Shown here piece after piece: positions 38,719-53,761 of a stretch of 64,000 nt of DNA. The notes under the pieces were generated by a model. The model had not been told where the DNA came from and ran no database searches. It saw only the letters and a program-made list of their open reading frames with translations. A program made the position numbers and the translations under genes. The stretch's first letter is position 1; each line of letters opens with the position of its first letter. Source of the DNA: Cyclobacteriaceae bacterium (GTDB lineage: Bacteria > Bacteroidota > Bacteroidia > Cytophagales > Cyclobacteriaceae); the NCBI GenBank assembly GCA_026989535.1, contig JALSJD010000072.1, positions 1-64,000 on the forward strand, in the 5' to 3' direction.

Positions 38719-39324
38719 GTGTTGGCTATCCTTTACCGTAGGTGTTTGGTTCAACAAAGCATAAAAATAATGGGTAATCTAACCACACAAAAAATACACT
38801 TAAAAAACTTGCAAAGTAAATGTTGTGTTAGGGCTATTAAATTAGACCTTGAAAGTATAGGTGTAAAAATACTAAGTTTAAACACCTTTTTTGTGGAAAT
38901 ACAGTATGATAAGAACACAATAAGCAAAAAGAAAATAATTGAAATCTTAGCCCTTTCTGGCGTATCCATAATAAACTCACGAGAAGAAAAAATAATAGAA
39001 GAAGCTAAAAAAGCTGTTTACGAGCTTATATTTGAAATGAATAATGTAGATTCTATTGTGAAAAAATCTGAATATATTGTTGAAAAAACAGGCTACAATT
39101 ATCGATTTATATCTAAACTGTTTTCAGATTATGAGTCTATTACATTAGAAAAATACATTATTCAACAAAAAATTAAAAAAATCAAACAATTAATTATTGA
39201 AGGTGAATTTTCATTAAGTGAAATTGCCTATATGATGGACTATAGCAGTGTGCAATACCTTTCTACTCAATTTAAAAAAGAAACTGGCATAACAGTAAGC
39301 CAGTTTAAAAACAGTACTTTTTGA
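38719..39324 (+). CDS. AraC-family transcriptional regulator
   Basis: C-terminal two-HTH AraC domain (FSLSEIAYMMDYSSVQYLSTQFKKETGITVSQFKNS); N-terminal HMA-like fold lacking CxxC; the start may be ATG 38770 (MGNLTTQ). Confidence 0.9.
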   Translation: MLAILYRRCLVQQSIKIMGNLTTQKIHLKNLQSKCCVRAIKLDLESIGVKILSLNTFFVEIQYDKNTISKKKIIEILALSGVSIINSREEKIIEEAKKAVYELIFEMNNVDSIVKKSEYIVEKTGYNYRFISKLFSDYESITLEKYIIQQKIKKIKQLIIEGEFSLSEIAYMMDYSSVQYLSTQFKKETGITVSQFKNSTF

Positions 39325-39521
39325 GTCCACTCCGAAAAACACTCAAAACCAATCGCTGAAAGCTCGGGATGGCAATATTCCCATCTTTCAATTAGCTAAT
39401 ACTCAGGCATCACCTTCGTGTAGCCGCTATGGCAGAGCAAGGCATTGCCGAATCTCGAAAAATGAAAATTTTATCCAAAACAACTCTTTTTGTAAAAATT
39501 GTCTGTTTTCGGAGTGGCCTC
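39323..39521. mobile_element. MITE-like element with 16-bp ITRs and a 7-bp target duplication
   Basis: ITR GAGTCCACTCCGAAAA (39323-39338) vs TTTTCGGAGTGGCCTC (39506-39521); direct repeat ACTTTTT at 39316-39322 and 39522-39528. Confidence 0.88.
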
Positions 39522-39540
39522 ACTTTTTAGTATTTTTCAT

Positions 39541-39666: not shown

Positions 39667-39909
39667 ATGAAAATACGAAATAACATAGCTGTAAGTGAAA
39701 CAGGGTTTGTATTTGACCCTAATAGCGGTGATTCATTCACTTTAAACGAAACAGGAAAACAAATATTAAATATGCTTTCTGAAGGAAAAACAGGATCTGA
39801 AATTAAACATTTTTTTATTGAAAATTTTGAGGTAGAGGTAACCACTTTTGAAAATAACTTTAGCGAATTTTTAATGATGTTACAAGGTTTAAATTTAGTT
39901 GAAGAATAA
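39667..39909 (+). CDS. PqqD-like RRE protein
   Basis: NNIAVSETGFVFDPNSGDSFTLNETGKQILNMLSEGKTGSEI...VTTFENNFSEFLMMLQGLNLVEE, the PqqD winged-helix pattern. Confidence 0.85.
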   Translation: MKIRNNIAVSETGFVFDPNSGDSFTLNETGKQILNMLSEGKTGSEIKHFFIENFEVEVTTFENNFSEFLMMLQGLNLVEE

Positions 39910-39914
39910 ATCTT

Positions 39915-40958
39915 ATGAAACCAAAATATACCATAGCAGTTACAAGCCTTAACAATACAGATAACCCTGGGGCAGGAGTTCCTGTAATTAGAGGATTACG
40001 TGAAGCAAAAAGTTTTGATGTACGCATTATAGGATTGGTGTATGAGAACTTAGAACCTGGTATATATATGGAAAATGTAGCTGATAAAATTTATCAAATA
40101 CCCTATCCTTCAGCTGGTTCTGATGTTTTTATGGAACGTATTGAGTACATCCATTCAAAAGAAAACATAGATGTTATTATTCCAAATTTTGATGCTGAAT
40201 TATTCACCTTTATGAAGTCCGAACACGTCTTAAAGGATATGGGTATTAAAACATTTTTACCAACTATTAAACAATTTGAAGAAAGGCATAAATCAGAACT
40301 TCCAGAGTTTGGCAAAAAATACGGCTTTGACATTCCTTTTAGTAAAACAATAACCAACCTGTCAGATATTAAAAACTTACAGTACGAGTTTAATTACCCT
40401 GTATTAGTTAAAGGAAAATTTTATGATGCTTATTTGGCTTATACACCTGAACAAGTAATCGAATTTTTTAATAAAATAAGTTCAAAATGGGGTGTTCCAG
40501 TAATTATTCAAGAATTTATTAAAGGTACTGAGGTAAATGTTATAGCCTTAGGAGACGGTAAAGGAAACACCATAGGATCAGTACCTATGCGTAAACAGTA
40601 TATAACAGACAAAGGAAAAGCTTGGGGAGGAATTACCTTAGGGGATAAAAATCTAATGAAGATTACAAAAGACCTAATCAAAAAAACAAAGTGGAAAGGT
40701 GGTATGGAATTGGAATTTATCAAAACCCAAGAAAATAAGTATTATATCATTGAGATAAATCCAAGAATTCCTGCTTGGGTTTATCTTGCCGTAGGTGCTG
40801 GGCAAAATTTACCAGAAGCACTTGTTAAATTGGCACTTGGCGAAAATGTAGAGCCTTTTAAATCGTATGATGTAGGGAAAATGTTTGTGCGATATTCACA
40901 AGATATTATTGCTGATATATCTGTGTTTGAAAAATTATCAATGATTGGAGAATTATAA
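39915..40958 (+). CDS. ATP-grasp ligase (CarB-like)
   Basis: NYPVLVKGKFYDAYLAYTPEQ, VIIQEFIKGTEVNVIALGDG, GGMELEFIKTQENKYYIIEINPRIPAW. Confidence 0.92.
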   Translation: MKPKYTIAVTSLNNTDNPGAGVPVIRGLREAKSFDVRIIGLVYENLEPGIYMENVADKIYQIPYPSAGSDVFMERIEYIHSKENIDVIIPNFDAELFTFMKSEHVLKDMGIKTFLPTIKQFEERHKSELPEFGKKYGFDIPFSKTITNLSDIKNLQYEFNYPVLVKGKFYDAYLAYTPEQVIEFFNKISSKWGVPVIIQEFIKGTEVNVIALGDGKGNTIGSVPMRKQYITDKGKAWGGITLGDKNLMKITKDLIKKTKWKGGMELEFIKTQENKYYIIEINPRIPAWVYLAVGAGQNLPEALVKLALGENVEPFKSYDVGKMFVRYSQDIIADISVFEKLSMIGEL

Positions 40959-40982
40959 TATAAAAAATTAAGTAATAAAGAG

Positions 40983-42332
40983 ATGACCACGAAAAAAAGA
41001 TACGAACGACCAATTATTACAAAAATAAATGCAGGTGTAACCGATAAATTTGGTATGCGACCCAAAATGCCTATAATTTCTAAAATTGAGGGTGTTGCCA
41101 TTACAGATATTATTGCCAAATATGGTTCTCCAGCTTTTGTTATTTCTGAAAAAACTATCCGAAAAACATATAATGAAGCCAAAAGAGCTTTTAGCACTCG
41201 CTATCCTAATGTTCAATTTGCTTGGTCTTATAAAACAAACTACCTAGATGCTGTTTGTCAAATATTTCATTCAGAAGGTGCTTGGGCAGAAGTTGTATCA
41301 GGTTTTGAATACGATAAAGCAATAGCAAATGGAATTCCAGGTAATAAAATACTCTTTAACGGGCCAGATAAATCTAAGGATGATTTAATTAAAGCTGTTG
41401 AAAATGGGGCTTTTATTCACTTAGATCATTTTGATGAACTATATGAGTTATTAAGTATTGCAGATACTTCAAAAAAACGACCCAAAGTAGCAATACGTGT
41501 TAATATGGATACAGGTGTTTATCCGTTATGGGATAGGTTTGGGTTTAACTATGAAAATGGGGAAGCTTGGAATGCTTTAAATCGTATAATGCTAAGTGAA
41601 AAAATGGATTTAGTCGGTTTGCACACGCATATTGGAACCTATATGATGACACCAGACCCTTATGCAGTTGCAGCTTCTAAATTGGCCGAGTTAGCTGTAA
41701 GGGTTGATAAAAAATACAATCACAAAATTAAATATATAGATATGGGTGGAGGTTTTGCTTCAAAAAACACCTTAAAAGGAGCTTACTTGCCCGGAAAAGA
41801 TACCTGTCCAAGCTTTGACCAATATGCTGAAGCAATTACCAATGCTTTAATAAATTCAGAGTTAGATCCTAACAAAATGCCAACCCTTTTCTTAGAAACA
41901 GGCCGTGCCTTAATTGATGATGCTGGTTATTTGGTAGGTACTGTTTTGGCTAACAAAAGATTATCTAATGGAAGGCGCTCTATGATTGTTGATGTTGGAG
42001 TTAATATGTTATTTACTTCTTTTTGGTACGAACACGAAATTTACCCTGTAAAAGAAGTAAGTGCAAATGCAGAAGACACTACTATTTACGGACCTCTTTG
42101 TATGAATATTGATGTAATAAGAGACGTTATCAAATTTCCATTGCTACAAAAGGATGATAACTATGTAATAAAAAGAATTGGAGCCTATAATATGACACAG
42201 TGGATGCAGTTTATTACATTAAGACCCAATATTGTTTTAATTGACATTAATGGTAATACACATATTATTAGAGAAAAAGAAACCAATGAAAGTTTAACCT
42301 CTCACGAAAGAGTTCCTGCCTATTTAAAGTAG
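40983..42332 (+). CDS. Fold III PLP-dependent amino-acid decarboxylase (DapDC/ODC-like)
   Basis: FAWSYKTNYLDAVC (PLP lysine), GLHTHIGTYM, IDMGGGFA, LFLETGRALIDDAGYL. Confidence 0.93.
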   Translation: MTTKKRYERPIITKINAGVTDKFGMRPKMPIISKIEGVAITDIIAKYGSPAFVISEKTIRKTYNEAKRAFSTRYPNVQFAWSYKTNYLDAVCQIFHSEGAWAEVVSGFEYDKAIANGIPGNKILFNGPDKSKDDLIKAVENGAFIHLDHFDELYELLSIADTSKKRPKVAIRVNMDTGVYPLWDRFGFNYENGEAWNALNRIMLSEKMDLVGLHTHIGTYMMTPDPYAVAASKLAELAVRVDKKYNHKIKYIDMGGGFASKNTLKGAYLPGKDTCPSFDQYAEAITNALINSELDPNKMPTLFLETGRALIDDAGYLVGTVLANKRLSNGRRSMIVDVGVNMLFTSFWYEHEIYPVKEVSANAEDTTIYGPLCMNIDVIRDVIKFPLLQKDDNYVIKRIGAYNMTQWMQFITLRPNIVLIDINGNTHIIREKETNESLTSHERVPAYLK

Positions 42333-42339
42333 AAAATTA

Positions 42340-44529
42340 ATGTCGATAAAAGTAAAACCTGCTTTAAAAACTACGCTAAATAGCTATTCTCAGATTTTTT
42401 TCTCTGAGAACAACTTCTTGGCATCATTACTTATTGCGGTTAGTTTTTTAGATCCTTGGGTGGGGTTTTATGGCTTAATTTCTGTGCTATTTGTAAATTT
42501 TACAGCAATAAAATTAGGCTACGATAAATTTACAATACAAAAAGGGCTTTATGGTTTTAATGCGTTGTTAACAGGCTTAGGAACAGGAATGATATATCAA
42601 CCTAGTGTATCGCTCACTATCATAGTTTTATGTATAGCCTTGTTAACTTTGTTTATAACCATAGCACTGCAAGGTGTATTAGCTAAATATGCACTGCCTT
42701 TCCTGAGCATTCCGTTTATTATTGGTATGTGGACAATATTATTAGCAACCAAAGATTTTTCGGCATTAGGGTTGGCAGAAAGAGGCATTTATACTTATAA
42801 TGAATTATACGCCTTAGGAGGTAAAAATTTAGTAAATATTTATGACTGGTTTGGTAATTTACAAGGGTTTGAAAGTATTAAAATATACTTTTTGTCACTC
42901 GGAGCCATCTTTTTTCAAAGTAATGTATTGGCAGGAATAATTATTGCTATAGGCTTGCTTAATTTTTCTAGAATAGCCTTTTCTCTTTCCTTATTAGGTT
43001 TTTATTCGGCTTATTTATTTTATCTTTTTATTGGAGCTAATTTTTCCGAACTGGAATATACATTTATAGGGTTTAACTATATTCTAACAGCAATTGCCAT
43101 TGGTGGGTATTTTATTGTTCCTTCAAAAACATCATATACTTGGGTGATTGTTTTACTTCCAGTTACTATACTTATTGCCTCTAGTTTAGAACATGTTTTT
43201 TCGGTATGGCAAATTCCTATATACTCTTTACCCTTTAATATTACCGTATTACTATTTATTTATATTCTCAAATTAAGAATTACTAAAAGTGAGAGCCTTA
43301 ATGATTTATTTGTTAAGCTAGAAACCCCAGAACAAACCTTATACCTCTATAAAACAGTTACCGAAGAATTTAAAAGTAAAAATTATTATCCTATTCACTT
43401 ACCCATAAAAGGCGATTGGAATGTTATGCAAGCTCATAACGGAAAATATACCCATAAAGATAAATGGCGACACGCATGGGATTTTATTATTTTAAATGAA
43501 GAAGGAAATCAGTTTAGTGGTTCGGGCGACTATTGTGAAGATTATTATTGTTATAATAAGCCTGTTTTTTCACCATCTCACGGATACATTGTTGGTATAA
43601 CAGATGGTATTGAAGATAACATTATTGGGGAAGTAAATACTGCCCAAAACTGGGGAAACTCTATTGTTATTAAACATACCGAATTTTTATATACACAAGT
43701 TAGCCATTTAAAAGCTGAAAGTATTAAAGTTAAAATTGGCGATTATGTAAAAAAAGGGAAACTCCTAGGAAATGTAGGTAATTCAGGTCATTCACCATAC
43801 CCTCATTTGCATTTTCAAATACAAGCAACGCCTTATGTAGGTTCAGAAACCTTAGACTATCCTTTATATAATTATATTGTTAAAAATCAATCTGAAATTG
43901 AATTAATTACTTTTGGTAAACCCCAAGAAAATCATTTAGTTGCCCCTGCTGAGTTAGATGAGATACTTAAAAATGCATTAAATTTTATTCCAGGAAAAAT
44001 ATTGCAAGTTTCGGAAGAAGGTAATATCTATAAAACAGAGATGTGGAAAATTCAAAAAAATGCGTACAATCAGACCTATATTTCAGACGAAAAAAGCGAC
44101 TCGTCTATTTTCTTTTATACCACAGAAGCAGGAGTGTTTTTTGCAAATTTTAAAGGAGATAAAGGGAGTAATTTATTTATATTTTTCAAATCACTGTACA
44201 ACATAAATAAGTCATTTTATAAAAACATAGAAATTAAAAATAACATAAGACCAGATTTGTTTTTTAGCAAACCTGTAATGTGGATGCAAGATATTATAGC
44301 ACCCTTTTATCTTTTTTTGGAGGTTAAATTCTCTTTAAACTACATAGAAAAGGATGATGAATTTATGCCTAATGCTATAAATATTAAAACAAAAAACACC
44401 AAATATTTCTTAAAAAAATCTATTAATGAGGAAGTTTTTGAGATTACTATTTTTAGAAAAGGGACTATCGATATACAATCTAAAAACACATCAAAAAAAA
44501 TAAGAGTTGAAACATTGAAAAACGTATAA
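42340..44529 (+). CDS. Urea-transporter-like membrane domain fused to M23 metallopeptidase
   Basis: N-term FTIQKGLYGFNALLTGLGTGMIY (UT family); C-term M23 residues KWRHAWDF, SPSHGYIVGI and GNSGHSPYPHLHFQIQ; further about 200-aa C-terminal extension. Confidence 0.88.
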   Translation: MSIKVKPALKTTLNSYSQIFFSENNFLASLLIAVSFLDPWVGFYGLISVLFVNFTAIKLGYDKFTIQKGLYGFNALLTGLGTGMIYQPSVSLTIIVLCIALLTLFITIALQGVLAKYALPFLSIPFIIGMWTILLATKDFSALGLAERGIYTYNELYALGGKNLVNIYDWFGNLQGFESIKIYFLSLGAIFFQSNVLAGIIIAIGLLNFSRIAFSLSLLGFYSAYLFYLFIGANFSELEYTFIGFNYILTAIAIGGYFIVPSKTSYTWVIVLLPVTILIASSLEHVFSVWQIPIYSLPFNITVLLFIYILKLRITKSESLNDLFVKLETPEQTLYLYKTVTEEFKSKNYYPIHLPIKGDWNVMQAHNGKYTHKDKWRHAWDFIILNEEGNQFSGSGDYCEDYYCYNKPVFSPSHGYIVGITDGIEDNIIGEVNTAQNWGNSIVIKHTEFLYTQVSHLKAESIKVKIGDYVKKGKLLGNVGNSGHSPYPHLHFQIQATPYVGSETLDYPLYNYIVKNQSEIELITFGKPQENHLVAPAELDEILKNALNFIPGKILQVSEEGNIYKTEMWKIQKNAYNQTYISDEKSDSSIFFYTTEAGVFFANFKGDKGSNLFIFFKSLYNINKSFYKNIEIKNNIRPDLFFSKPVMWMQDIIAPFYLFLEVKFSLNYIEKDDEFMPNAINIKTKNTKYFLKKSINEEVFEITIFRKGTIDIQSKNTSKKIRVETLKNV

Positions 44530-44531
44530 TT

Positions 44532-45842
44532 ATGAAAAAAATAATGTATATAGTTTTACTATTATTTTTCGTAAATAATAGTGCTGCCCAAATAGTGCAA
44601 AATGTTCCTTCTGTTGATAAAAAAACCTACGAATTATACCTAGCAAAAGATTGGGATAAGTTAATAAAAATAGGGAAAAATGCATTAAGAAATGGCATTG
44701 ACTTTTATTACCTAAACTACAGATTAGGTATTGCTTATTATGAAAAGCAAAATTATGCACAGGCAATAAAATACTTTAAAAAAGTAAACCTATCCAATCC
44801 AAATGATGATACCATAAAAGAATATTTGTATTATTCGTATTTGTTATCTAGTCGTTATGATGATGCTAGACTACTAGGAAACAACTTTTCTGATAAAATG
44901 AAAAAGCGCTTGGGCATAAGAATAGCAAACCCGTTTTTTAGTGCCATACATCTTTCGGCTAAATTTGATATTGTTGAAGATTATACTTACACATCTCAAT
45001 CAAATGAAAAAATAGACCAACAGGTAGTTCAAAAGCAATCTTGGTATAGTTTTGGCGCTGAGCATTTAATAGGGAATAACATTACTCTAATGGGCGTTTT
45101 TAGCAAAACAAATATCGAAAATGCAGTTAATAATACTAATCCTGATTTGCCAGAAAAATACACAGGTAAAGTCAATCAAAATCAGTATTATGTATCTTTA
45201 AAATACCATTTAGGAAATGGATTTAATACCGCTTTAGGCTTGCACTATTTAAGTACAGAATTGTACGCGCCAACAACTAGAACTCAAGGCAATGGCAAGT
45301 CTAGAAATTTTAACTTATATTCTTATAAAGAAAAGTCATTTGTAGTATCAGCCAATATTAGCAAATCATTCTCCATATTTAATGCCACTTTAGAGACCTC
45401 TATTGCCAACTTAAATAATAAAACCCAAATACAGCCTTCTCTAAGCTTGAGAATTTATCCTTTTGGAAACAATACGTTCTTTTTAGAAACAAAGGGAATT
45501 TATATAGCTGAAACCGATGGGGTAATAAGCACAAACTATTCGACTATAAAGCAGAGTTTTGGCTTTAAAATTAAGAAATACTCTTTTATCAGCCCATCCA
45601 TTACTTATGGCGAATTACTTAATTTTACGGATTTTAATGCATTTATAGTTAATAACGATATAGATAAAACAAAACTGAGGATTGAGAACTATATTAACAT
45701 AGGATTTAACGAAGGCTATTTTAATGTGTTTTTTAATTATAGATACAATATTAAAGAGAATACCTATAAGATAAACAATGCTAATAAGGCCATAGATTAT
45801 AACTCACAAAATATTTTATTAGGCATAAAATGGTACTTCTAA
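44532..45842 (+). CDS. TPR protein with C-terminal outer-membrane beta-barrel-like region
   Basis: Signal peptide, TPR (NYRLGIAYYEKQNYAQAIKYFKKVNLSNPNDD), alternating amphipathic strands, terminal GIKWYF. Confidence 0.8.
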   Translation: MKKIMYIVLLLFFVNNSAAQIVQNVPSVDKKTYELYLAKDWDKLIKIGKNALRNGIDFYYLNYRLGIAYYEKQNYAQAIKYFKKVNLSNPNDDTIKEYLYYSYLLSSRYDDARLLGNNFSDKMKKRLGIRIANPFFSAIHLSAKFDIVEDYTYTSQSNEKIDQQVVQKQSWYSFGAEHLIGNNITLMGVFSKTNIENAVNNTNPDLPEKYTGKVNQNQYYVSLKYHLGNGFNTALGLHYLSTELYAPTTRTQGNGKSRNFNLYSYKEKSFVVSANISKSFSIFNATLETSIANLNNKTQIQPSLSLRIYPFGNNTFFLETKGIYIAETDGVISTNYSTIKQSFGFKIKKYSFISPSITYGELLNFTDFNAFIVNNDIDKTKLRIENYINIGFNEGYFNVFFNYRYNIKENTYKINNANKAIDYNSQNILLGIKWYF

Positions 45843-45864
45843 AAAAATAAACAAATAAATAAAT

Positions 45865-46482
45865 ATGAAGCTGCTAAATATCACAATAATTGCTTTGTTC
45901 TTAAACATAAATTTTGCTTTTGGGCAAACAAATAAAGAAATAATCAATGCTTTTAAAAAAAGTTATGAGCTGGAAGCAACGGGTTCGTATAAAGAAGCAT
46001 CGAATGAATTAAAAAAAGTATATGCTGATGATTCTTATGAGATAAACCTACGTTTAGGCTGGTTAGAGTATAATGCTGGTATGTTTCAAGAATCTGCTGC
46101 CTATTACCAAAGTGCACTAAATTTAAAACCCTATTCAGAAGAAGCAAAATTTGGATTAATCAATCCAAAAGTAGCTCAAGGAAAATGGAATGAGGCTATA
46201 AAAATATATAATAACATATTGTCTATAAATTCATTAAATACAGTAGCAAACTACCGTCTTGGGCTTATTTATTTCGGACAAAAAAAGTATTTAAATGCTA
46301 AAGAGTACTTTGGGAAAGTAGTAAACTTATACCCTTTTGATTATGACAGTTTACTGATGCTTGCTTGGACTAACTACTATCTAGGAAAATATAGTACTGC
46401 AAAGGTTTTATTTAACAAAGCACTTATGAATAGACCTAATGATAAATCTGCTCAAGAAGGACTTGATTTATTAGACCTATAA
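45865..46482 (+). CDS. Periplasmic TPR protein
   Basis: Signal MKLLNITIIALFLNINFAFGQ and several TPR units. Confidence 0.85.
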   Translation: MKLLNITIIALFLNINFAFGQTNKEIINAFKKSYELEATGSYKEASNELKKVYADDSYEINLRLGWLEYNAGMFQESAAYYQSALNLKPYSEEAKFGLINPKVAQGKWNEAIKIYNNILSINSLNTVANYRLGLIYFGQKKYLNAKEYFGKVVNLYPFDYDSLLMLAWTNYYLGKYSTAKVLFNKALMNRPNDKSAQEGLDLLDL

Positions 46483-46517
46483 GAGACCAATAATTTGCTA
46501 GCAACAAAAAAACAACT

Positions 46518-47405
46518 ATGAGAAAAAGCCTAACTTATTATATTACTTTATTTATTATTAAATTAAAAGGTATAAAAAAAGAGTTTAGTAAAGCCCCCAT
46601 AGACTATAAAAAAATAAGAAAAGAAGATATTCACCAACCGAAATCCAAGTTTTTTAGGAAGTATTTAGTGCGTAATTTTAAAATTTCGAACACCTCAATT
46701 ACTGAGGTAAATCGAAACAAAACATCTTCTAACTTATTAATATTTATTCACGGAGGAGCTTTTATTTCAGGTCCAGCAAAACATCATTGGGATACATTAC
46801 AAGAAATTTCTAAACGAACAAAATATACAATTTGGATGTGTGATTATCCAAAAGCACCTGAAAATAATATTTCAGAATTATCGAAAAATATTGATTTGGT
46901 ATATAAGACTGCTTTAAAAACTTACCAACCTAAACAAATTTCACTTATTGGCGACTCTGTTGGTGGAACGTTGATTATAGCTCTTACACAGCGATTAATT
47001 AAAAAACAAATTGAGTTGCCTCTCAAAATAATACTCGTTTCTCCAGTTATGGACGCCACTATGTCTAATCCTCAAATAGATGCGATAGATAAAACAGACC
47101 CTATGTTAGCGAAAGTTGGAGTACTTAGTGCGAAAAAAATGTGTGCTGAAAACGATAATTTGAAAGATGTGATGATCTCACCAATAAATGGAAGCTTTAT
47201 TGGTTTTCCAAAGATAGTTTTATTTATAGCTGACAATGACATTACTTACCCTGACCAACAATTAACAATACAAAAAATGATTAAGGATAAAGTAAATATT
47301 GAAGTAATTATAGGAAAAGGGATGCCACATATTTGGCCATTTTTGCCTGTTATGAAAGAAGCAAAATTAGCTTTAAATGAACTAATATTTAAATTGAACA
47401 GCTAA
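46518..47405 (+). CDS. Alpha/beta hydrolase (HSL/steryl-acetyl-hydrolase-like)
   Basis: FIHGGAFISGPAKHHWD oxyanion HGG and GDSVGG nucleophile elbow. Confidence 0.9.
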   Translation: MRKSLTYYITLFIIKLKGIKKEFSKAPIDYKKIRKEDIHQPKSKFFRKYLVRNFKISNTSITEVNRNKTSSNLLIFIHGGAFISGPAKHHWDTLQEISKRTKYTIWMCDYPKAPENNISELSKNIDLVYKTALKTYQPKQISLIGDSVGGTLIIALTQRLIKKQIELPLKIILVSPVMDATMSNPQIDAIDKTDPMLAKVGVLSAKKMCAENDNLKDVMISPINGSFIGFPKIVLFIADNDITYPDQQLTIQKMIKDKVNIEVIIGKGMPHIWPFLPVMKEAKLALNELIFKLNS

Positions 47406-53356: not shown

Positions 53357-53761
53357 TTATCCCTTCGTCCAGTTTTCAATTCTTAGATGCTGTATTCTGT
53401 TAAACTCCTTTTCATTATTTGTAACTAAAGTCAGCCCAGTACTCTTGGCATGAGCACCAATCAAAGTATCTAATGGCCCAATTGGTGTCCCTCTCTTTTC
53501 TAGCTCTGCTCTTATAAATCCGTATTCAATCGATGCATTGTAGTCAAACTCAATTATCTCAAGTGGAATAATAAATTGGTTTAATGCACTAAGATTTTTT
53601 TCTGGATTTGAACTTTTACGAACTCCAAATTGCAATTCGGCTAATGTTATAGTAGAAATTCCGATACTACCAAGAGGAAACTTCTTAAATTTATTAAGGA
53701 CAATTTTAGGTTTCTTTTTAATTATGTAAATGCAAATATTAGTATCGAGCAAATATTCCAT
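53357..53761 (-). CDS. vapC: VapC-like PIN-domain toxin
   Basis: YLLDTNICIYIIKKKP, TLAELQFGVRKS, GPLDTLIGAHAKSTGLTLVTNNEKEFNRI. Confidence 0.93.
   Translation of the reverse strand: MEYLLDTNICIYIIKKKPKIVLNKFKKFPLGSIGISTITLAELQFGVRKSSNPEKNLSALNQFIIPLEIIEFDYNASIEYGFIRAELEKRGTPIGPLDTLIGAHAKSTGLTLVTNNEKEFNRIQHLRIENWTKG

Follow-up and report, generated by a model that had tools for sequence, protein, structure and literature searches.

A conserved six-gene cassette of Bacteroidota in which a lasso-type RRE most likely docks the tail of a PLP decarboxylase

The window analyzed here is a stretch of 64,000 nt (positions 1 to 64,000 of contig JALSJD010000072.1) from a Cyclobacteriaceae bacterium (GCA_026989535.1). 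Seven open reading frames occupy positions 39667–47405, all on the forward strand and separated by gaps of 5, 24, 7, 2, 22, and 35 nt, in agreement with the preliminary description of seven co-directional genes with gaps of 2–35 nt. They encode a PqqD-like free-standing RRE (39667–39909), an ATP-grasp ligase (39915–40958), a fold III (alanine-racemase-fold) PLP decarboxylase (40983–42332), a fusion of a urea-transporter fold with an M23/LytM domain and a C-terminal beta-rich region (UT-M23; 42340–44529), a protein with a signal peptide, a short TPR domain, and a predicted outer-membrane beta-barrel (44532–45842), a secreted TPR protein recognized by TPR Pfams (45865–46482), and a hormone-sensitive-lipase-like alpha/beta-hydrolase (46518–47405; PF07859, 3e-32). 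HMM searches bore out the families first proposed for these genes (PqqD, ATP-grasp, PLP decarboxylase, UT plus M23, and TPR), and AlphaFold did so for the TPR barrel.

Six of the genes, from the RRE to the secreted TPR protein, form a conserved cassette. The order PqqD, ATP-grasp, decarboxylase, UT-M23, TPR, on one strand, is kept in 55 of the 62 loci with room, far beyond chance, and the secreted TPR protein lies near UT-M23 in 58/66. The seventh gene of the operon as originally drawn falls outside it, with no homologue of the alpha/beta-hydrolase adjoining the cassette at other loci. The full-length decarboxylase, the ATP-grasp ligase, and full-length UT-M23 occur in an identical set of 27 of 297 phylum genomes and are absent from the rest of the sample; carriers make up ∼9% of the sampled genomes of the phylum and 19% of those of the class. 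Where genes are unlinked, UT-M23 is still encoded elsewhere in 7/8 genomes. The earlier division between cytoplasmic synthesis and an envelope module is matched by this distribution, the two modules always occurring together across genomes, and none of the components reported as missing (precursor peptide, radical SAM enzyme, or kinase) is conserved with the cassette. A role in anti-phage defence was set aside, PADLOC having given no meaningful match. Searches of the open-access literature turned up no account of this operon.

RREs normally grip the precursors of peptide antibiotics, and genome mining uses their presence to flag peptide natural products. The cassette RRE, the single PF05402 protein of its source genome (8.8e-10), has lasso RREs as its closest PDB relatives in profile comparisons (TbiB1, 6e-11; TfuB1, 3e-7; PbaB1). 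LppB contacts its leader (PMC13381572) with D70, through a hydrogen bond to the Tyr, with N33, which holds the Pro kink in place, and with F74 in the lining of the cleft; RRE residues N27, N64, and F68 show the same spacings of 37 and 4, the correspondence being one of spacing, not superposition. Across 165 RRE/decarboxylase pairs, N27 is kept in 164 and F68 in 155. Fold, lasso B1 similarity, and these leader-reading residues together support the view that the protein has the residues of a working RRE. An amino-group carrier of the LysW kind was rejected, the C-terminus of the RRE varying in length and sequence without a conserved motif flush with the terminus.

A candidate ligand lies within the cassette itself. 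The decarboxylase bears an N-terminal extension of ∼30 residues, outside the FslC and LysA alignments, with the conserved pattern K-x-x-[YF]-E-R-P-x-I-x(5)-G-x(3)-K-F-G (residues 4–24, 40992–41054; Lys22 at 41046–41048). Over the 165 pairs, P10 is invariant, K22 and G24 are each present in 164, and E8 and G18 each in 162. Its YERPxI segment fits YxxPxL, the leader motif read by lasso RREs; B1 recognition reportedly depends on the Tyr, Pro, and Leu of this motif (PMC10368454). Among HMMs the tail matched DUF5972 alone, below cut-off (E 0.03), with no match in NCBIfam and none in the PDB. A six-frame search of 15 cassette genomes with the motif profile returned good E-values for the decarboxylase alone in 15/15, and in the 297-genome sample the profile found exactly the 27 decarboxylase genomes plus one frame in genome G076, rejected as a precursor because it is a chance antisense match. 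Neither search yielded a second convincing motif carrier, such as a short precursor with leader and core, and the flanks hold no conserved small gene of at least 50 aa. The negative precursor search is tied to this leader motif; a precursor could carry a different one.

The link between RRE and tail is visible in their covariation. Decarboxylase residue 7 is Tyr in 114 of the 165 pairs, every time with Asn or Asp at RRE residue 64 (114/114), and Phe in the other 51, every time with neither (51/51); at this locus codon 64 (39856–39858) specifies Asn. This pair of positions ranks first among 22,464 RRE–decarboxylase pairs by MI-APC (z 11.1) and again by mean-field DCA. RRE residue 64 is the sole column that separates Tyr from Phe: 874 other columns from the RRE, the ligase, and the decarboxylase core fail, the next best reaching 89%. 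The switch changed five to six times on the tree, each time with the matching RRE change, although few of these changes fall on well supported branches. Shared ancestry alone is disfavoured, because other columns would then also separate the two states. Since the covarying RRE residue sits, by spacing, where the leader Tyr is hydrogen-bonded in solved RRE complexes, the RRE most likely docks the N-terminal tail of the decarboxylase rather than a free precursor. The initial reading, of a leader-binding RRE with no precursor in sight and of an amino-acid- or peptide-derived product, is upheld as to the working RRE and revised as to its ligand, the decarboxylase N-terminus taking the place of the missing precursor; a peptide-derived product is then not required.

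By family, the enzymes suggest chemistry on a small-molecule conjugate. The nearest PDB match of the decarboxylase is N-citrylornithine decarboxylase (7kh2, 1.9e-59), and the NCBIfam model FslC scores best (6.9e-70, 236 bits), yet well under its curated cut-off of 500 bits, which speaks against N-citrylornithine decarboxylase proper. Meso-DAP decarboxylase was likewise rejected: the LysA score (4e-65, 219.9 bits) is under the cut-off of 297.9, and GPLCMNID stands in place of the CES-type motif with which LysA holds the distal amino group. The ligase matches PF15632 (1.5e-10) and is closest to PRK12767/PylC-like proteins, with profile matches to the carbamoyl-phosphate synthase (CPS) large chain and, more weakly, to PylC (4ffl, E 0.007); its E280, N282, and R284 are kept in 178/178.

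In UT-M23 (PF03253, 4.9e-61; PF01551, 1.8e-13), AlphaFold (pLDDT 89) places the UT fold at residues ∼10–310 and M23/LytM at ∼350–500, followed by the beta-rich region. The UT domain resembles UT-B and dvUT (target-normalised TM ∼0.8) and is full-length, but below the Yut equivalog cut-off, and the M23 part resembles LytM domains. Evidence on the membrane topology of the fusion is ambiguous. H456, H489, H491, and D381 are invariant; H372 is conserved and would be the first zinc ligand, lying nine residues ahead of D381, unlike HxxxD. The model of the 44532–45842 product (pLDDT 89.8), with Foldseek matches to FadL, OmpG, and BcsC, predicts a TPR domain followed by an outer-membrane barrel, as in TPR-barrel exporters.

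Taken as a whole, the locus is best explained, and we think likely so, as a self-contained six-gene synthesis-and-transport cassette in which the RRE docks the decarboxylase tail. The PqqD-like protein would act as a lasso-type RRE and docking subunit whose ligand, strongly supported by sequence, is the leader-like tail of the cassette's own decarboxylase; operon linkage suggests that the ligase probably joins the same complex. Judging from the families, the ligase would activate a carboxylate and join it in an amide bond; the FslC/BtrK-type decarboxylase would then strip a carboxylate from the resulting conjugate. The urea-transporter-fold channel may let the small product across the inner membrane and the TPR-barrel let it across the outer one, while the M23 domain would clear peptidoglycan, anchor the assembly there, or release the product. 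On this reading, the product is probably exported.

A bolder version, possible though doubtful, moves the leader–core logic of RiPPs onto a metabolic enzyme, with the decarboxylase N-terminus as a fused leader and mini-core. The RRE would hold the leader and present Lys22 to the PylC-like ligase, which would attach an amino diacid at the epsilon-amine of this lysine; the PLP domain would decarboxylate the residue while tethered to this swinging arm, and a hydrolase, possibly M23, would free the product where the channel opens, for export through the UT fold, a sequence of events that we put forward tentatively. Lys22-Phe23-Gly24 is near invariant, though lasso RREs need YxxPxL alone, and the Tyr-to-Lys spacing is fixed at 15 in 180/180, like a leader-to-core ruler. 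PylC, which couples Lys through its epsilon-amine to an amino acid, is among the distant ligase matches, though the similarity is weak. A precedent is BtrK, which decarboxylates glutamate borne on the 87-residue BtrI (PMC7857480). The C-terminus of the UT domain, cytoplasmic by homology and positive-inside counts, also favours this scheme; against it, the nearest free M23 relatives carry signal peptides, so the M23 domain may be periplasmic. Lys22 could instead be structural, or touch the RRE or the ligase, and its covariation with the ligase is lost under tree control: the coupling of ligase I285 to decarboxylase residues 20, 21, and 25, considered as evidence for charging of Lys22, traces back to one tree change and does not appear in DCA. 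A butirosin-type acyl carrier was rejected as well, the small protein being an RRE and the cassette holding no ACP with a phosphopantetheine serine.

Somewhat less probable is uptake, with barrel, TPR protein, and UT channel importing a urea-like or amino compound for the ligase and decarboxylase. UT proteins are passive channels in which the gradient sets direction, and the fold and a conserved GxYGFNxLLxG region are retained. BcsC-type TPR-barrels, however, export, and the cassette barrel matches that fold; ligase and decarboxylase form a biosynthetic pair, and the cassette has no conserved catabolic enzyme.

We consider it very unlikely that this is a conventional RiPP cluster with its short precursor encoded elsewhere and the decarboxylase tail a mimic or remnant: a lasso-type RRE beside an ATP-grasp ligase is a RiPP-like pair, but the six-frame searches of the 15 cassette genomes and of the 297-genome sample gave no second convincing carrier, the flanks hold no further conserved gene family, and the covariation is perfect with the decarboxylase itself. 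Just as improbable is a purely structural extension covarying through shared ancestry, which the few, mostly weakly supported tree switches would allow, but which is opposed by the 0/874 other separating columns, by the identity of the covarying residue as the known reader of the leader Tyr (by spacing match to LppB), and by the position of the extension outside the FslC and LysA alignments.

Compared with known systems, the lasso B1/leader pairs (TbiB1/TbiA and TfuB1/TfuA) and LppB/LppA share with the cassette a free PqqD-like RRE, a YxxPx[IL] ligand, and, at matching spacing, the Tyr-reading Asp/Asn, the Pro-fixing Asn, and the cleft Phe. Unlike lasso systems, the cassette has its candidate ligand fused to a PLP decarboxylase, lacks a precursor peptide, B2 protease, and lasso cyclase, and, where the motif begins with Phe, shows a matching change in the RRE. 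Butirosin BtrI/BtrJ/BtrK likewise places a small protein, a ligase, and a fold III decarboxylase in sequence, and BtrK is related to the cassette decarboxylase, but BtrI is a phosphopantetheine carrier whereas the RRE has no carrier feature. The nearest characterized decarboxylases (FslC/FigC, SbnH, and AcsE) use amide or ester conjugates; the cassette differs in its putative docking tail and in having no NIS synthetase or citrate chemistry. With PylC it shares the ATP-grasp fold and a weakly similar N domain and profile, below the Pfam cut-off, but not PylB, PylD, or PylS. Its UT domain has the fold and full length of UT-B and dvUT, but is fused to M23 and always accompanied by the biosynthetic trio, with no urease context. 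Like BcsC/PgaA-type exporters, it sets TPRs ahead of an outer-membrane barrel and adds a periplasmic TPR protein, but the TPR region is very short, there is no polysaccharide synthase, and the inner-membrane channel is of the small-solute kind.

The sole partner of this RRE, which has canonical reading residues, appears to be a metabolic enzyme. If confirmed, leader recognition would be usable for enzyme docking, RREs without precursor peptides would be explained, and the way would be open to a small-molecule pathway not yet described, one that includes an unusual channel–peptidase fusion; the one-residue code between RRE and motif makes the claim directly testable.

A promoter scan gave no more sites than shuffled sequences. 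An AraC-type protein encoded just upstream of the cassette (38719–39324, forward strand; PF12833, 1.9e-12; likely start 38770) has an HMA-like N-terminal half in which NM-x3-CC is conserved in the alignment. Homologues precede the cassette in about a third of the loci with room (24/72), and this protein is the probable regulator of the cassette.

All seven co-directional genes reported in the preliminary description, from the PqqD-like RRE (39667–39909) to the alpha/beta-hydrolase (46518–47405), are present as ORFs on the forward strand with gaps of 2–35 nt, and each family call was borne out by Pfam and NCBIfam. The decarboxylase scored best against the N-citrylornithine decarboxylase FslC model (236 bits, cut-off 500), followed by LysA (220 bits, cut-off 298). 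The ATP-grasp protein is nearest to PRK12767/carbamoyl-phosphate-synthase-like ligases, and its PylC-like N domain scores below cut-off. The PqqD-like gene is the sole PF05402 member in this genome, and its nearest solved relatives are the lasso RREs TbiB1 (6e-11), TfuB1 (3e-7), and PbaB1 (7e-4).

Scanning genome contigs for the decarboxylase gathered at least 580 related loci, the best 80 of which belong to Bacteroidota and, as judged from record titles or taxonomy, to Chlorobiota, Ignavibacteriota, Rhodothermota, and Marinimicrobia. Of the loci whose flanks are long enough, the PqqD-like and ATP-grasp genes are each present in 87 of 88, UT-M23 (a urea-transporter fold fused to an M23/LytM domain) is present in 78 of 84, the TPR protein in 58/66, the fused TPR-barrel in 47/66, and the AraC regulator in 24/72. 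The neighbourhood check suggested earlier found the genes co-occurring elsewhere, with the same-strand order RRE–ligase–decarboxylase–UT-M23–TPR kept in 55 of 62 such loci. Divergent members (48–57% decarboxylase identity, including L101–L111) lack the fused TPR-barrel, and a separate barrel-like gene of ∼280 aa adjoins several of these cassettes (L101, L105, L109). No conserved extra gene family was found in the flanks, which vary from locus to locus; the cassette is thus self-standing, and of the seven-gene operon first proposed six genes are conserved, whereas the alpha/beta-hydrolase is a neighbour.

Of 297 genomes sampled from the phylum, one shared set of 27 carries the decarboxylase, the ATP-grasp, and full-length UT-M23, and nine additional UT-M23 matches span the M23 domain alone; in a class sample, 73/388 genomes carry the decarboxylase. 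Where UT-M23 does not follow the RRE–ligase–decarboxylase trio on the contig, it is present elsewhere in 7/8 genomes. In one genome, G181, the decarboxylase region is present twice, as identical copies at opposite ends of one contig, and in one of them the UT-M23 frame is broken.

About 30 residues ahead of the decarboxylase catalytic domain fall outside the FslC and LysA alignments. Across 165 non-identical RRE–decarboxylase pairs, this tail has the consensus K(4)xx[Y/F](7)E(8)RP(10)xI(12)x5G(18)x3K(22)F(23)G(24), with P10 conserved in 165, K22 and G24 in 164, and E8 and G18 in 162; the Tyr-to-Lys distance is 15 in 180/180 sequences. Discrete lasso RREs recognise the motif YxxPx[L/V/I] (PMC10368454, PMC13381572, PMC12710340). 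In agreement with the earlier failure to see a free precursor peptide, a six-frame search with the tail profile matched the decarboxylase alone in 15/15 cassette genomes (E ≤ 3e-6; next match 0.026), and across the 297 genomes it hit all 27 that carry the decarboxylase and, beyond these, only a single antisense frame within a sensor-kinase region.

RRE residue 64 is Asn/Asp in 114/114 pairs with Tyr7 in the decarboxylase and in 0/51 with Phe7; in the latter, Tyr predominates at residue 64. This is the pattern expected from direct contact, since Tyr gives a hydroxyl to the acceptor and Phe cannot. The pair ranks first of 22,464 RRE–decarboxylase pairs by MI-APC (z 11.1) and first by mean-field DCA; no other column of the RRE, ligase, or decarboxylase tells the Tyr7 and Phe7 pairs apart, and the runner-up predicts the residue at 89%. 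On the tree, both traits change six times in the 85-row set and five in the 165-row set, always together. Because few of these changes lie on well supported branches, the counts alone leave some room for shared ancestry as the source of the pattern. Much of this gap is closed by the structure of LppB, in which the leader Tyr is hydrogen-bonded by D70, F74 forms part of the cleft lining, and N33 holds the Pro kink in place (PMC13381572): cassette residues N27 (nearly invariant, 164/165 pairs), N64, and F68 match N33, D70, and F74 in spacing (37 and 4). We infer that the RRE docks the decarboxylase through its tail.

At the level of sequence, the cassette, RRE type, docking motif, and matched residues are established. 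The ligase may share a complex with the RRE and decarboxylase, forming an amide first, after which the conjugate would be decarboxylated. The analogy is with FslC, SbnH, and BtrK, whose clade is associated with specialised metabolites and not with polyamines (PMC7857480). Free DAP is a disfavoured substrate, as the LysA CES motif is replaced by GPLCMNID. Charging of Lys22 by the ligase, with Lys22 then carrying the substrate, is a rather doubtful extension, suggested by its near-invariance at a fixed distance and by the parallel of PylC, which charges a lysine side chain. When this was probed by ligase–decarboxylase covariation, the apparent signal traced to one event on the tree and lends it no support.

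All parts of the cassette belong to known families. We found no description of the combination, nor any prior characterisation of the operon, in the open-access literature searched; as far as we know, an RRE–leader pair docking a metabolic enzyme would be new.

The UT-M23 AlphaFold model (pLDDT 89) comprises a UT fold resembling UT-B and dvUT (target-normalised TM ∼0.8) followed by a LytM domain, whose presumed M23 zinc and catalytic residues are conserved in the variant spacing TH-x8-D. Known UTs have cytoplasmic termini, which, with the charge pattern (C-terminal flank net +1.8, inter-half loop net −1.0), would place M23 in the cytoplasm; however, two free M23 relatives (G321:C40, G206:C5; L266, L268) are secreted proteins of ∼320 aa with signal peptides, which speaks against this. 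The location would decide the function of M23, either product release or passage through peptidoglycan. The predicted barrel (pLDDT 89.8) matches FadL, OmpG, and BcsC in fold, and export is the likelier direction of transport.

Upstream, the AraC-type regulator (38719–39324) has an HMA-like N-terminal half with a conserved NM-x3-CC, which suggests a response to a metal or thiol signal; its gene is divergent from the cassette in some loci (L054, L055, L085). Between it and the PqqD-like gene, an inverted repeat (39307–39537; 32-nt arms, 75% complementary, 167 nt apart, core CCACTCCGAAAA/TTTTCGGAGTGG) looks like the remnant of a small insertion element. Elsewhere in the window, a PIN-domain ORF (53357–53761), VapC-like by eye, has no obvious adjoining antitoxin, and a four-helix-bundle MCP-type sensory module (PF12729, 37785–38393) ends past its second membrane segment and is apparently a truncated sensor.
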